Shown piece by piece: positions 15,197 through 25,790 of a stretch of 31,940 nt of DNA. The stretch comes from a virus. The stretch lies in IMG/VR virus record IMGVR_UViG_3300048625_000193, positions 1 through 31,940 of that record; one strand, given 5' to 3'. The notes under the pieces are model-generated. The model was not told the origin of the DNA. It searched no databases and saw nothing but the letters and a program-made list of their open reading frames with translations. The translations under genes and the position numbers were made by a program. The first letter of the stretch is position 1; every line of letters starts with the position of its first letter.

Positions 15197-15934
15197 TTAC
15201 CAGAACCAAAGGTCGCCGGTTGCGTTGGCGGTCGGAGTTGCGGACTGAACGAATATAGTAGTCGCAGCTCCGGACGAGGTTCCGCCCGCACGAATCTTGC
15301 CCGCGACGATGTTCGCTTGTTCCGTCGAGCTGATGTTGGACGCGCTGACGCCGTCGTTGAAGCCCTGCCAGGCGGAGCCATTCCATACTTCGGGGATGCC
15401 CGTCGACGTGTTGAAGCCGGAGAGACCAAGCTCGGGAGAGCTCGGGCGGAGAGCCGTCGTCCAACGACCGAACGGTGCGCCCATGAACTGACGAAGGTCT
15501 TCTACGTTGCCCGCTGAGATGGTTGTCGCCGAGCCCGCAATGTTCACGCGGGCGATAGGGAACTCATAGATTCCCTCGTCGGTCTGAGTGAGTGATGGAT
15601 CGGTAGGGGTCGAGGCGGCGGTTCCTGCCTTCACGACGAGCGTGATGGAGTTGGCCGTCGGGTCGAGCTTGAGAACGATGAGGTCACGTCGCGGGTTCGA
15701 GGAGGCCGCCGAGATGGTGAGCGTGACGATGGCGTCGTTCTTGTAGAAGTGACCGCGCACCATCGCATAGCCGACGGCGACCTTGACGTTCATGCCGGAC
15801 GAGTCGCCCGTGACCTTGACGTTCGAGTCGCCGACCGTGCCGGCGATGCCCGTGAAGTTGAGTCGACGGAAGAGCTGAGAATACTGAGCTTCCGTGGTAT
15901 CAGTGGAGTCGAACGGATAGGAGGTCTGTGTCAT
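15197..15934 (-). CDS. Minor tail / tip protein
   Basis: 245 residues from the ATG at 15934 (AAGGAAAG upstream, start codon inside the repeated GCAACATGACAC). The N-terminus SYPFDSTDTTEAQYSQLFRRL and the VKVAVGYAMVRGHFYKND...RRDLIVLKLDP pattern are typical of siphophage tip proteins that form a beta-rich receptor-binding trimer (baseplate upper-protein type). The C-terminal third is Ser/Thr/Gly-rich with ATGDLWFW at the end. Likely part of the adsorption apparatus with its two neighbours. Confidence 0.75.
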   Translation of the reverse strand: MTQTSYPFDSTDTTEAQYSQLFRRLNFTGIAGTVGDSNVKVTGDSSGMNVKVAVGYAMVRGHFYKNDAIVTLTISAASSNPRRDLIVLKLDPTANSITLVVKAGTAASTPTDPSLTQTDEGIYEFPIARVNIAGSATTISAGNVEDLRQFMGAPFGRWTTALRPSSPELGLSGFNTSTGIPEVWNGSAWQGFNDGVSASNISSTEQANIVAGKIRAGGTSSGAATTIFVQSATPTANATGDLWFW

Positions 15935-18830: not shown

Positions 18831-20671
18831 GCGGCGATTACCTTTGCGCGCTTGAGGGCTTGAGTGAGAGCTTGCTCGGAATCGAGCGACGTGTTCGGCG
18901 CGGCGTAGTAGTTGACCGTCTGCCCGGAACCGTTACCCATGCCCATCATTCGCTCAAAGTCTTTCAGAGGAGTGACAACCTCGGGACCCGCCTCGCCGAT
19001 GAGAGCCGTAGTCGGCTTGTCGACGAAGCCTCCCTTCGCGAGCGCGGGAATGTGGGGGATGCTGAAGCCGAACTTCTTACCTCCGACGAGGGGAACCCAA
19101 TCGGGGATGTCGACGTGGATGGCGTTGAGCCCGTCAATCATTCCGTTGATGAGTCCGATGAGGCCGTTGATGGGAGCCTTGACGACGTTGAGCACGTTGA
19201 CGAAGGTGTCGCGAATGAAGTTTTTGACGTTGGTGAACGTGGAGACGATGCCGTTCCAGATGTTCATCCCGGCGTCCGTGAAGAACTTGATGATTCCATT
19301 CCACGCGTCACCGAAGAACTTGACGATGGCATCCCAATTTTTGATGATGATGCCGTAGATAGTCCAATCGAGGAACATTTGGACGAGCCATCCGAGGGCG
19401 TCACCGAACCACTTGGTGATACGGTTCCACACTCCGACGACAAACTCCCACACGCCCGTCCACAAGTCATTCCACCATTTCATGACGGCGTTGAAACCAT
19501 CGGCGAAGAACTTGGAGATGTTCGCCCACGCCTCACCAATCCACTTGACGACGGCGTCCCAATTCATCGCGAGGAAGATGATGGCAGCGACGAGCGCCGC
19601 GATGCCGAGGATAATCCAAGTAATCGGGTTAGCGAGGAGAGCAACCGTCCACGCCCACGTTGAAGCGATGATGGCAGCCATACCACCCGCGGCGGTAATG
19701 GCAGCGACGACGTTGAGGACGCCCATGTAGATAGCGATTCCGAGGAGCGCCGTACCAATAGCGCCGAGCACCGGAAGAATCCAAGCTTGATTATCGGAGA
19801 ACCATTGGAACGCGCCCTTGATGCCCGCACCGAGTCCGCTCATGGCGGGGATGACGTTCGTCGTGATAAACGTGGCAATGCCTGAGATGACCGGCTGAAG
19901 CTCCGTACCGATGGCCTGAGTGAGGTCATCCCATTGAGCCTTCATCTTTGCGAGAGGAGTCGCCGACGCGGCAGCGGTTCCGCCGACCTGACGCTCGACC
20001 TCGCCGAGGATGACCTTCTGAGCGGATGCCACGTCATTGACCGCCATGAAGTCCTTGACTTGCTTCTTCTGGTCTTCTGAGAGCGACACACCTACACGCT
20101 GAAGCGCGGTGATTCCCTTGAGCGGGTCTTGGAGAGCCTTACCGAGCATGACCGAGGCGGAGTCCACCGAGCCGAAACCGGCAGCGGACAAGTCCATCGC
20201 GAGGGTCGTCGCCTTGTCGAACGCTCCGCCCATCGTGCCGGCGCTCTTCGCGACGTTCGAGAACGTCATGAGCTTCGCCTGACCTGCCTTGATGACGTCG
20301 TCGTCGATGCCCGTCATCTTCATCTGTTCGGTCGCGAAGTCCTGAAGGCGAGTGACGACCGTTCCGGTTGCGCCTCCGAAGATGTTCATCTGTTTCGTAA
20401 TGTTGCTGAGAGTCGCGTCGACCTTCGCGCCTTCCTCAGCGGATCGAATCATGTCGCCCGTGAAGGACGCGATTCCGACCGCAGAGAACGCGACCGCCAG
20501 GGGACCGAGTGCGCTCTTGAGACCGCCGAGCATCCCTCCACCGAGACGAGAGCTTGAAGTCTTGCCCGCCTCGTCGGCAGCGTCGGGAAGCCCCTTCTTC
20601 ATCCAAAGCTCGAGGTCTTTAGTACCCGGAACAATGTTCACGAAGGCGGTCGCGAGAGCGCGTTCTGCCAT
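18824..20671 (-). CDS. Tail tape measure protein
   Basis: 615 residues, the longest frame between the tail tube and tip genes apart from the 621-residue hub. The N-terminal third is helical with the TMP-type start (FVNIVPGTKDLELWMKKG). A central block of hydrophobic segments (about 275-360, AWILPVLGAIGTALLGIAIYM...) is followed by Trp/Phe repeats (WDAVVKWIGEAWANISKFF, WDAIVKFFGDAW). It ends in the usual GGFVDKPTTALIGEAGPEVV. It sets tail length: about 0.15 nm per residue suggests a tail near 90 nm, an inference. TAATG overlap with the chaperone frame. Confidence 0.92.
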   Translation of the reverse strand: MAERALATAFVNIVPGTKDLELWMKKGLPDAADEAGKTSSSRLGGGMLGGLKSALGPLAVAFSAVGIASFTGDMIRSAEEGAKVDATLSNITKQMNIFGGATGTVVTRLQDFATEQMKMTGIDDDVIKAGQAKLMTFSNVAKSAGTMGGAFDKATTLAMDLSAAGFGSVDSASVMLGKALQDPLKGITALQRVGVSLSEDQKKQVKDFMAVNDVASAQKVILGEVERQVGGTAAASATPLAKMKAQWDDLTQAIGTELQPVISGIATFITTNVIPAMSGLGAGIKGAFQWFSDNQAWILPVLGAIGTALLGIAIYMGVLNVVAAITAAGGMAAIIASTWAWTVALLANPITWIILGIAALVAAIIFLAMNWDAVVKWIGEAWANISKFFADGFNAVMKWWNDLWTGVWEFVVGVWNRITKWFGDALGWLVQMFLDWTIYGIIIKNWDAIVKFFGDAWNGIIKFFTDAGMNIWNGIVSTFTNVKNFIRDTFVNVLNVVKAPINGLIGLINGMIDGLNAIHVDIPDWVPLVGGKKFGFSIPHIPALAKGGFVDKPTTALIGEAGPEVVTPLKDFERMMGMGNGSGQTVNYYAAPNTSLDSEQALTQALKRAKVIAAW

Positions 20672-21293
20672 TAGGTTATCTCCTTGGGGTTCATCTTCGC
20701 GAGTAGTCGCTTCACCTCTTCCGGAGACTTATCTGTCTTGCCGGTGCGTGTGACGTCCTTGTTCGGGAACGGGTTCGGGTACGGCTTAGGCTTCTTGCCC
20801 TTGCCGGAATTGAGTGACGCGTGAAGGTCGAAGGTGTGCGATGCGACAATCCATTCACGCGAGACGGGATAATTCCATCCGCTGAACGCGGCGGTCGTCC
20901 ACGATGAAGGGTCACGCATGAGAATTGACACGAGGTAGACGGCGTCTAGGTAGGTGACGCTCGAGCCGATGTCGGTCAGCGTGAGGCCGAAGCGTTCCCG
21001 TAGGTCATAGGTGAGCTCGGCGGGATGCTCCTCGATTAGCTCTCGGAGCTTGAGGATTCCCCCATCGGCGCTCCCTGAGTCCATCCCTCGATGAACTTCT
21101 GAAACTCGGTAGAGCTCATGTCGTCGATGGCGTCGAGCTCCGGTGAGCCTTCGCCCATGACGGTCTCGAGGATGGTGAAGGCACGGTCGCCGTCATCGGT
21201 CGCCTTGCGCGACTTGCGGATGACACCGACGGGAATGTCTGAGAAGGAGGGGACGGTGAAGTCGGTTCCCTTGTGAGTGAATGAAAAAGCCAT
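20671..21293 (-). CDS. Tail assembly chaperone, frameshifted long form (G-GT type)
   Basis: A -1 ribosomal frameshift at GGGGGAA (21063-21057) joins 78 residues of the upstream frame (through GAPMG) to 129 residues of the next frame (GILKLRELIEEHPAELTYD...), giving 207 residues. The second frame has no plausible start of its own. Paired short and long chaperones made by frameshift, located between tail tube and tape measure genes, are conserved in long-tailed phages; they wrap the tape measure during tail assembly. The C-terminus is basic (GKGKKPKPYPNPFPNKD). Confidence 0.9.
21036..21293 (-). CDS. Tail assembly chaperone, short form (G type)
   Basis: 85 residues from the ATG at 21293: MAFSFTHKGTDFTVPSFSDIP, then helical GVIRKSRKATDDGDRAFTILETV and TEFQKFIEGWTQGAPMGESSSSES. 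It is translated when ribosomes do not slip at GGGGGAA; it then ends at the TAA 21 bases past the site. It is expected to be in excess over the long form. Confidence 0.88.
   Translation of the reverse strand: MAFSFTHKGTDFTVPSFSDIPVGVIRKSRKATDDGDRAFTILETVMGEGSPELDAIDDMSSTEFQKFIEGWTQGAPMGESSSSES
21057..21063 (-). promoter_or_regulatory. -1 programmed frameshift slippery site
   Basis: GGGGGAA on the minus strand, read G-GGG-GAA in the zero frame. GGG re-pairs with GGG and GAA slips to GGA. GGGGGAA is a slippery sequence often used by actinophage tail chaperones. The shifted frame continues without a break into the 129-residue extension. Confidence 0.88.
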
Positions 21294-21325
21294 AGCGGTC
21301 TCCTTGGTTAGCGGTGCGGAAGTGT

Positions 21326-21380
21326 GAGCGGTCGAAGTGAGTGGAGCCGGGGAGAGACGACCGCTCTATCCCTCCCCGGC
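21326..21380 (-). other. Interleaved inverted repeats, H-type pseudoknot geometry
   Basis: Two perfect 9-bp inverted repeats are interlaced: GAGCGGTCG (21326-21334) with CGACCGCTC (21358-21366), and GCCGGGGAG (21346-21354) with CTCCCCGGC (21372-21380). The order A1-B1-A2-B2 cannot form two separate hairpins. It is either a pseudoknot (loops 5, 3 and 11 nt in the minus-strand RNA) or a two-state switch. There is no T tract. It fills the 100-base gap between the major tail gene and the chaperones. Confidence 0.75.
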
Positions 21381-21393
21381 GGCTTAGGGGTTC

Positions 21394-21927
21394 TTAGTCG
21401 ACGAGAGCCGAGTAGAACTTCTTGAACGAGAAGCCGTCAGCCGAGGCGTAAGCGGTGATGGTCACGTCGTAACCGATCGCCTCGCCGTTCTGGTAGACCT
21501 GTTCACCGACGGAGAGAATCTCACCGGCGGGGATGTAGGTACGGATGGCGTCCGTGCCGTCAATGAGGTCGATGACGAACGACTTGCGTCCACCGGTCGA
21601 AGCGGGGTTGACCTCGATGGAACCGTCAGCGACGTCAACGGCTGAGCCGTAGTAGGCCGCGAGAGTATCGAGCGAGGTCTCCAAGAGAGTCGCCTGAAAA
21701 GTAGCGGTAGCTTCGGTGACAACCTCGCGGACGAGGTCGCTGTTCTGCCATGCGCGAATCTGGTTGGTGGAGCGGTCACGCGTTTCGGTGATGCCGTCCG
21801 AGTGGATGTAGCCGAGAGCGGTGAAACCGGTCAGCGACGTGGTAGCGCCGGTCGGGGCGGTTGCTCCGGTCGAGCCAACGTAGAGAGCGCCGGTCGTTCC
21901 GACGCGCACGTTAGTTGCTGTAGACAT
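21394..21927 (-). CDS. Major tail (tube) protein
   Basis: 177 residues from the ATG at 21927 behind AAAGGAAAC; the extra 12 residues upstream cover leader sequence. It has the beta-rich pattern of siphophage tube proteins: NVRVGTTGALYVGS...TGFTALGYIHSDGITETRDRSTNQIRAWQNSD (about 5-65), then TEATATFQATLLETSLDTLAAYYGS and a C-terminal strand set ending SFKKFYSALVD. It is abundant in the virion. The leader carries two small hairpins and the downstream gap a larger element, consistent with separate control of its expression. Confidence 0.87.
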   Translation of the reverse strand: MSTATNVRVGTTGALYVGSTGATAPTGATTSLTGFTALGYIHSDGITETRDRSTNQIRAWQNSDLVREVVTEATATFQATLLETSLDTLAAYYGSAVDVADGSIEVNPASTGGRKSFVIDLIDGTDAIRTYIPAGEILSVGEQVYQNGEAIGYDVTITAYASADGFSFKKFYSALVD

Positions 21928-24435: not shown

Positions 24436-24978
24436 TTACTGACCGAGTACGTCGGACAAACGTCCGGCGCGCTTCGCTTCCATGATTTCGCTCGGGCTCA
24501 TATTGGCGAGGTCTTCCTTCGTCAACTGACCGGGCTTCTCGGTAGCGGGGCGACCCTGAGACGCGTCGGGCGTCGGGGTCTTCGGCTTCGACTGAGTCGC
24601 AATGAGTGCGATCAGCGCGTCCGCGTTCTCTTCGAGCTCCTCGCGAGTGGAGCCGGTGAGTAGGCGGAGAGCCTCGGTGGGAATGTTCTTCTCTGACGCG
24701 ACCTCGTAACGAAGGAGCGCCGTCCGTGCGGACTCTGCCTCTGCCTTCGTCGTGGCAAGCTCTTCAGCCATGCGCTCTTGCGCGGGCTTCTGAGCGGCCT
24801 CGTATTCGCGCCACTTGTTAGCGAGCTCCTTGTCCGCGTTAGCGTCCTTGGCTCGCTTCTCCCACTTGCGGGCTTCAGCCTTCCAATCGGTCGACTCCGG
24901 CTCACCCTGCGGTTCCGGAATAGCAACCTCATCGGTTGGCTCTACTGTGGTTTCGTTGACGGTAATGTCGTCACTCAT
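24436..24978 (-). CDS. Scaffolding protein
   Basis: 180 residues from the ATG at 24978 behind GGAAAGGAAC. It is acidic, helical and low-complexity: an N-terminal disordered stretch rich in E/P/T, a central Lys/Glu/Ala coiled coil (KAEARKWEKRAKDANADKELANKWREYEA...), and a Pro/Ser tail ending KAGRLSDVLGQ-like helix (MEAKRAGRLSDVL). Position just before the coat gene and composition fit a scaffold that guides procapsid assembly and is then removed. Confidence 0.82.
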   Translation of the reverse strand: MSDDITVNETTVEPTDEVAIPEPQGEPESTDWKAEARKWEKRAKDANADKELANKWREYEAAQKPAQERMAEELATTKAEAESARTALLRYEVASEKNIPTEALRLLTGSTREELEENADALIALIATQSKPKTPTPDASQGRPATEKPGQLTKEDLANMSPSEIMEAKRAGRLSDVLGQ

Positions 24979-25049
24979 AGCGGTTCCTTTCCCCATGCGG
25001 GGTTAGTTGTCAGCCGTGCGGCTGTTTCCCGGCAAGACGCCGGAAGATG
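24979..25049 (-). other. Three tandem hairpins before scaffold gene
   Basis: The 71-base gap holds CCCC-ATGC-GGGG (24992-25003 region), CAGCC-GTGC-GGCTG (25013-25026 region) and CCGGC-AAGAC-GCCGG (25029-25043 region), one after the other. Each is perfect. None has a T tract in the minus-strand direction. They probably mark an mRNA processing or control point between the MuF and scaffold genes. Confidence 0.55.
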
Positions 25050-25790
25050 TTAGGAGCGTCCCGAGATGGTTCGCATCGCCGAGAGAATGTCCTCAGCGGA
25101 AGAGGAGTTGACCGAGGCAAAAGCCTCCTCGTACTCACTCTGAAAATTGTCGTAGTAGTCCGGGCGGTACGCGTCGAGACCCTTGAAGATGGGGACGGTC
25201 GTACAACCGCAATGGTCGTGATAGCCGTCGTCGTCCTCGAAGCTCGTGTATTGGTTGAGGGCAACCGTCGCGCAGAACGCGCAAGCGCTAGCCGAAGCGA
25301 CCCGCTGATATCCGACGACCGCCGAATCCTGCGAGGCAGCGTTCGCCATCGTCTCGCGGAAGATGTTCGTCACCTCACGGCCGACCGTCGCGCCGAGGTC
25401 TGTCTCAGCCTCGAACGTGAAGCCCGCCGAGAACTTAGCCATTGACCGCCCGACCGCTTTACTCGTCCGCTCCGCCTTCGACTTGTCAACCTCAGCCGCC
25501 CACGCAAGGAACACCGGGTCGTTTTGACGGCGAGTCAACGCGACCGCTGTAGCCTCCGGAGTGCCGGATGCTCGGAGCTTCTTGTAGTAGTCCGACGCGG
25601 TGATGAGAGCGAGGTCTCCGAACTTGTCGATCACTCCACCCGCAACGACCCGAATAGCGCCACCCGCCGTCTGACGGTCGAGACCGTCGAGCGAAGGGAG
25701 AAGCCTTGAGACGGTAGCCACGGCCTTAGCAGCGATGCCGTTCTGAGCGACCGCTGTAGCGCGAATAACGTCCTTAGAGAGCTGAGCCAT
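25050..25790 (-). CDS. MuF-like minor head protein
   Basis: 246 residues directly behind the portal gene (TAATG overlap). The N-terminal half is helical. The C-terminal half has SASACAFCATVALNQYTSF, then DDDGYHDHCGCTTVPIF: Cys and His residues in a C-x2-C ... H-x-HCGC layout common to MuF/gp7-type head-morphogenesis proteins of actinophages, likely metal-binding. It becomes a minor virion component and may be ejected with the DNA. Confidence 0.78.
   Translation of the reverse strand: MAQLSKDVIRATAVAQNGIAAKAVATVSRLLPSLDGLDRQTAGGAIRVVAGGVIDKFGDLALITASDYYKKLRASGTPEATAVALTRRQNDPVFLAWAAEVDKSKAERTSKAVGRSMAKFSAGFTFEAETDLGATVGREVTNIFRETMANAASQDSAVVGYQRVASASACAFCATVALNQYTSFEDDDGYHDHCGCTTVPIFKGLDAYRPDYYDNFQSEYEEAFASVNSSSAEDILSAMRTISGRS

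Follow-up and report, generated by a model that had tools for sequence, protein, structure and literature searches.

A candidate pseudoknot switch between the tail tube and tail assembly chaperone genes of long-tailed Actinobacteria phages

Tail assembly requires many tube subunits and few tail assembly chaperones, and the genes for both are neighbors on one late mRNA. The frameshift that yields the G and GT chaperones is known; upstream of this frameshift, the ratio may also be set in a 100-nt gap between these genes, examined here in IMG/VR virus record IMGVR_UViG_3300048625_000193, positions 1 to 31,940 of which are referred to here as the window. An earlier note on this DNA had described two interlaced perfect 9-bp repeats in the gap and had read them as a pseudoknot or a two-state RNA switch.

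Results

On the minus strand of the window, the gap is preceded by the major tail protein (tail tube) gene (21394..21927, stop codon 21394-21396; phrog_117, E 3.6e-43) and followed by the first tail assembly chaperone gene, the proposed target of the element (21036..21293; phrog_8595, E 2.6e-11). A second, overlapping chaperone ORF, which is gpT-like, lies further downstream on the same strand (20671..21084; phrog_4075, E 7.2e-11). The two chaperone ORFs share 49 nt (21036-21084), in keeping with programmed frameshifting of the gpG/gpGT type. The gap itself (21294-21393) extends from the tail protein stop to the chaperone ATG and is noncoding, as had been claimed, and all four arms of the interlaced repeats are present and perfectly complementary: GAGCGGTCG (21326-21334), GCCGGGGAG (21346-21354), CGACCGCTC (21358-21366), and CTCCCCGGC (21372-21380). 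No phage record matched the region in a DNA search.

The coding (minus) strand of the gap can be parsed as an H-type pseudoknot, composed of a 12-bp stem, S1, and a 9-bp stem, S2, the latter formed between the loop of S1 and an arm downstream. In the parse of both the window and its relatives, the loop pairs outside its own hairpin, and the arms follow in the order S1-5′, S2-5′, S1-3′, S2-3′. On the minus strand, the 5′ arm of S1, GCCGGGGAGGGA (21369..21380), is joined by the 2-nt L1 to the 5′ arm of S2, GAGCGGTCG (21358..21366), which is the loop strand and the proposed anti-RBS. The 3′ arm of S1, TCTCTCCCCGGC (21346..21357), L3 (11 nt, 21345-21335), and the 3′ arm of S2, CGACCGCTC (21326..21334), complete the fold; this last arm is referred to as the proximal arm and is the proposed decoy RBS. 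The arms are assigned by complementarity, by the parse, and by covariation, which is seen at all S1 pairs; the loops are assigned by the parse. The 3′ arm of S2 is present in three copies, two of which are missing from the earlier note: a middle copy, ACCGCT (21310..21315, minus), and a start copy, GACCGCT (21294..21300, minus), which abuts the ATG and overlaps by one base the Shine-Dalgarno (SD)-like sequence of the chaperone gene, AAGGAG (21300..21305, minus).

Interlaced perfect 9-bp repeat pairs within 60 nt occur once on the minus strand of the window. When the whole window (31.9 kb) was dinucleotide-shuffled 200 times, such a pair within 60 nt appeared in a single shuffle, and none of 100 local shuffles reproduced the element, in agreement with the earlier judgment that a chance origin is very unlikely. 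The energy of a nested-only fold of the 100-nt gap is not unusual (z −0.59) because pseudoknot-free folding sees S1 alone. Support for the putative element comes from the comparison between relatives, not from folding energy.

Relatives were gathered as 80 IMG/VR loci by a tail protein search and as 80 loci by a profile query, with partial overlap between the two sets, and the pseudoknot and the chaperone start were parsed in 76 loci, 45 of them non-redundant. In these loci, S1 is mostly 10-16 bp, L1 is 1-6 nt, S2 is 5-9 bp, and L2 is 0-4 nt, with the parser at times taking the start copy as S2 instead of the proximal arm. L3 spans ~6-19 nt or is longer where a hairpin is inserted (e.g. L051, L055, and L072). 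Such an extra GC-rich hairpin, placed between S1 and the S2 3′ arm, is found in the GCGGC class, to which these three loci and L118, L141, L143, L156, and others belong.

In an alignment of 30 divergent relatives, 90.2% of the cells pair compared with 69.4% after shuffling, the covariation score is 0.553 compared with 0.178 ± 0.016 for shuffled alignments, and both-sided changes are found in 17 of 21 pairs; the aligned sequences are related, and these counts are not numbers of independent events. Sliding the partner by 1-3 columns, a control that retains this relatedness, lowers pairing to 35-47%. Both-sided changes are visualized in all 14 pairs of S1 and in 3 of the 7 pairs of S2, the remaining four being invariant in the alignment; in other phages, S2 is swapped wholesale for another sequence. 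RNAalifold recovers S1 on its own. The paired substitutions that the earlier note had proposed to look for in related phages are therefore present in both stems, and the outcome that it had named as refuting, loss of both pairings without compensating changes, is not what is observed, as relatives keep the pairings with compensation. The comparison supports the existence of a real RNA structure.

The single locus from a named bacterium among the relatives, L084 of Aurantimicrobium minutum (NZ_JARXVT010000001.1), also contains the element. This phage-like locus sits in the genome of a freshwater member of the Microbacteriaceae, which points to the probable hosts of these uncultivated phages. 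In relatives from Curtobacterium and Frigoribacterium, the element is absent, and the next ORF begins immediately past the stop.

The geometry of S1 and S2 and their spacing to the stop codon are similar to those of frameshift pseudoknots, and the element was considered as a candidate stimulator, at the 3′ end of the tail tube gene, of programmed frameshifting or readthrough. In many relatives (e.g. L020, L032, L050, and L052), however, neither shifted frame stays open for more than about 30 nt, and several relatives carry the in-frame double stops TAATAG or TAGTAA. A conserved open extension frame past the stop is not present, which excludes such a stimulator and leaves it a negligible probability.

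In addition to the proximal arm, the loop strand has a complement in the SD/start region of the chaperone gene, and this alternative pairing is conserved. Of 43 loci, 36 carry at the chaperone start (−14 to +11) a complement of at least 5 nt to their own loop, compared with 6 of 177 other gene starts; in the remaining 7 of the 43 loci, a clear start copy is missing by this 5-mer test. Each locus holds 2-4 copies of the arm. Among the 45 non-redundant loci, pairing of a loop with its own start scores 18.48, compared with 15.25 ± 0.42 after exchange of loops among the loci (0/1000 exchanges reached the observed score) and 10.4 ± 0.3 for letter-shuffled loops. In 40 of the 45, the start duplex reaches at least 6 bp and is contained in the interval from −12 to +6 relative to the AUG. 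Where the S2 class changes (e.g. L004, L105, and L130), the loop, the proximal arm, and the start copy are altered jointly: GCGGAC/GUCCGC occurs with AUGUCCGC, GUGGACU/AGUCCAC with AGUCCACAAUG, and GGCGGGC/GCCCGCC with AUGCCCGCC. These comparisons support the view that one loop strand would have at least two conserved, mutually exclusive partners, one of which is the chaperone RBS. Taken with the paired substitutions, this second partner lends strong support to the original reading of a pseudoknot or two-state RNA switch.

Action of the loop in trans on other genes is unlikely, as complements are rare near other gene starts. Three of the six other starts that do carry a complement belong to the gene at the scaffold position. 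In the window, the ACCGC(T) motif with which the pseudoknot loop could pair also directly precedes the start of this gene (24976-24984, minus), and the same is seen in L016, L076, and L095. A second, recurrent RNA structure is predicted here: three hairpins (24979-25050, minus) precede the scaffold-position gene, which lies upstream of the major head protein gene, with counterparts in relatives such as L084:4731-4823, L147:4158-4250, L095:5797-5889, and L158:3732-3824. The last two hairpins have a common loop type within each phage, either CUCG[AC]AA[UC]GAG and UCCGAAA[CU]GGA or CCGCAUGG twice, and the final hairpin contains or abuts the SD. The three-hairpin structure looks like a set of tandem operator hairpins.

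Pairing of a loop near an RBS need not repress. In the IncIα/ColIb-P9 repZ system, translation of the downstream gene is controlled through pairing of a hairpin loop with a remote sequence next to the SD; this pairing is activating and is countered by an antisense RNA and a leader peptide. The proposed pairing in the tail gene gap is similar in that a loop reaches a distant sequence beside an SD, and by analogy it could activate the chaperone gene by drawing the chaperone start close to the tail stop codon, through termination-reinitiation or in the manner of repZ. In most relatives, S1 starts 5-17 nt past the tail stop, and in Leroy and MoxS-R1 it likewise follows small intervening ORFs, which would suit this reading, although compact genomes would also predict such short spacing. 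Unlike in repZ, the pairing here would lie across the SD/AUG and face competition in cis from a decoy copy. Among start duplexes of at least 6 bp, 28 overlap the AUG and 17 overlap the SD region (−12 to −6), which should block 30S binding, and activation is considered unlikely.

The GC-rich, 10-16-bp S1 stem stands directly past the tail gene, where it or the pseudoknot could cut read-through or halt 3′ exonucleases and so lower chaperone relative to tube mRNA, much as the earlier note had suggested. Cluster O mycobacteriophages have a hairpin in the corresponding place, next to the major tail gene; it is followed by TTTCT and was called a likely terminator (PMC4351075). In contrast, the element described here has no T tract and possesses S2 and the start complement in addition to the hairpin. 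A GC-rich hairpin with a U tract, the signature of an intrinsic terminator, is not found, nor was any terminator-like site detected in a scan; a terminator is unlikely, and the earlier statement that the missing T tract argues against an ordinary one holds. In the text of an RNA-seq study of L5 and D29, late transcripts extend as far as the gene 32-33 terminator, and no mention of a stop at the gap was found there (PMC5712189). Moreover, attenuation or 3′-end protection leaves S2 and the conserved chaperone-start complement unexplained. That the conserved third partner is the chaperone RBS/start points to control of translation instead; the suggested limit on read-through or protection of the upstream message is not supported, and this class of explanation appears very unlikely.

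Similar three-way complementarity is found in isolated phages with unrelated arm sequences. For isolates with tail proteins less than about 45% identical, strong hairpins in the gap were taken and their loops compared with the proximal and start regions. The arrangement was identified in phages of Mycobacterium, Gordonia, Microbacterium, Arthrobacter, and Rothia. The loop complements 8 bp proximally and 12 bp at the start in Leroy/Asapag (Gordonia), and 9 and 12 bp, respectively, in Confidence. Three-way complementarity is also present in CarolAnn, Ghobes, and Azira; in Bachaco and its IMG/VR relatives (Microbacterium) and MoxS-R1; and in Spartoi (Rothia), Kittykat (Arthrobacter), and LilSpotty and PGHhamlin (Mycobacterium). 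Brynnie (Arthrobacter) fits too once the strongest stem is chosen. The mean energy of the loop:chaperone-start duplex is −14.7 kcal/mol for 21 isolates, some of which are close relatives, compared with −8.6 kcal/mol at 43 other gene starts (Mann-Whitney p 0.005). Across 80 loci that resemble those of Cluster A mycobacteriophages, the loop TGGCGGGCC hardly varies and is followed by one or two proximal CCCGCC copies, and the starts read mainly GGUUCGCC, GGUCCGCU, or GGCCUGCC. The main variable start positions are C/U opposite a loop G, so that pairing is preserved via G-U. D29 carries the three-way complementarity as well, in the gap between its genes 23 and 24 (15582-15694). In BarrelRoll, Lego, CoffeeBean, and TinaLin, the proximal half alone is clear, and in the gap-hairpin search of isolates the element was unclear or absent in Catfish, Fryberger, and Lederberg. 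The element would not fit into the 15-nt V-G gap of lambda, into the 28-nt gap of Cutibacterium phage Solid, or into Streptococcus phage Javan155, where the next ORF follows after 10 nt.

The variety of these arms bears on a rival reading, in which the chaperone gene is repressed by a protein, from phage or host, that recognizes the pseudoknot or the arm copies. A precedent exists in T4, where gp32 binds a pseudoknot in the gene 32 leader and then spreads over the A+U-rich RBS region (PMC3014915). Like the element described here, the T4 structure is an H-type pseudoknot that precedes the RBS of a regulated gene in a phage leader mRNA, and the arm copies at each locus could serve as repeated binding sites. 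No second loop complement at the RBS is described for gene 32, however, and no protein is known to bind the present element. The arms are unrelated between phage groups while loop complementarity persists, so what the groups have in common is base pairing and not recognition of a sequence by a protein. A protein could instead sense the fold, whereas one that reads the sequence is hard to reconcile with unrelated arms; overall, a protein operator is given a modest chance, well below that of control by pairing in cis.

The gap is probably a cis-acting translational switch in the late mRNA, in which the loop acts as an anti-RBS and the proximal arm as a decoy RBS. S1 would present the loop strand, which would pair with the arm just downstream to form the H-type pseudoknot. 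As the loop strand would accommodate a single partner at a time, two mutually exclusive pseudoknots are predicted. With the loop on the decoy, the RBS would be open and the chaperone made; with the loop on the start copy, the SD or AUG would be masked and no chaperone made. The balance may be set during transcription, as the decoy is synthesized first, and the loop could be handed on by way of middle copies. The predicted outcome is chaperone output held low relative to that of the tube protein, whose gene lies just before the element on this mRNA.

In the window, the loop duplexes with the decoy, middle, and start copies have energies of −18.7, −11.9, and −13.7 kcal/mol, respectively, and among 46 loci the proximal arm is favored by >1 kcal/mol in 25 and the start in 8, with the two within 1 kcal/mol in 13, all as duplex energies without loop-closure costs. 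The stronger decoy duplex of the window implies an RBS that is open at equilibrium, so that a repressed state would need kinetics or a helper; we infer the OFF state and its trigger. The balance could possibly be struck by a fixed fractional output, by a co-transcriptional relay, or by help from the ribosome or a protein. One relative, L121, is without the pseudoknot and has in its place a long hairpin that pairs UAGUCCU of the tail gene stop region with the chaperone SD, AGGACUA (L121:7640-7700, −41.9 kcal/mol for the folded stretch). This hairpin suggests classical translational coupling and fits with RBS access being the controlled step.

Discussion

The proposed switch shares features with several further systems. 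In the type I toxin mRNA aapA3 of Helicobacter pylori, alternative pairings, also proposed to be cotranscriptional, hide or expose an SD; there, nested hairpins keep the toxin off (PMC6733600), whereas here a single loop strand would serve two pseudoknots, and the decoy mimics the RBS. The SAS/ESAS elements of Cluster K and EF phages similarly comprise a conserved start-site motif tied to sequence just upstream in intergenic gaps. These elements are repeated at several genes per genome (PMC7302621), whereas the present element appears to occupy one site per genome, with phage-specific sequence. The expression platform of a translational riboswitch works similarly, but no aptamer is evident in the gap.

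The proposed RNA switch looks undescribed. Rfam gave nothing above the gathering threshold in the window or in 16 relatives, and full-text searches of an open-access library turned up no description of the element, which is weak evidence as subscription papers fall mostly outside its scope. The earlier remark that no described element of this type was known agrees with both searches.

Taken more broadly, the comparison raises the prospect of a ligand-free, sequence-independent switch, in which an anti-RBS loop passes from a decoy to the true RBS and so fixes the tube:chaperone ratio from one mRNA, and which would be widely shared, and probably of ancient origin, among long-tailed phages of Actinobacteria. 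This wider proposal is tentative, its chance of being right falling a little short of even. The element is easily overlooked because complementarity alone, and not primary sequence, is conserved. If the proposal is true, well-studied laboratory phages such as D29 would contain a widespread regulatory RNA, and a second phage class of pseudoknot translational control would stand beside that of T4 gene 32. The arrangement of loop, decoy, and target would then represent a design principle that sequence-based RNA searches have missed.
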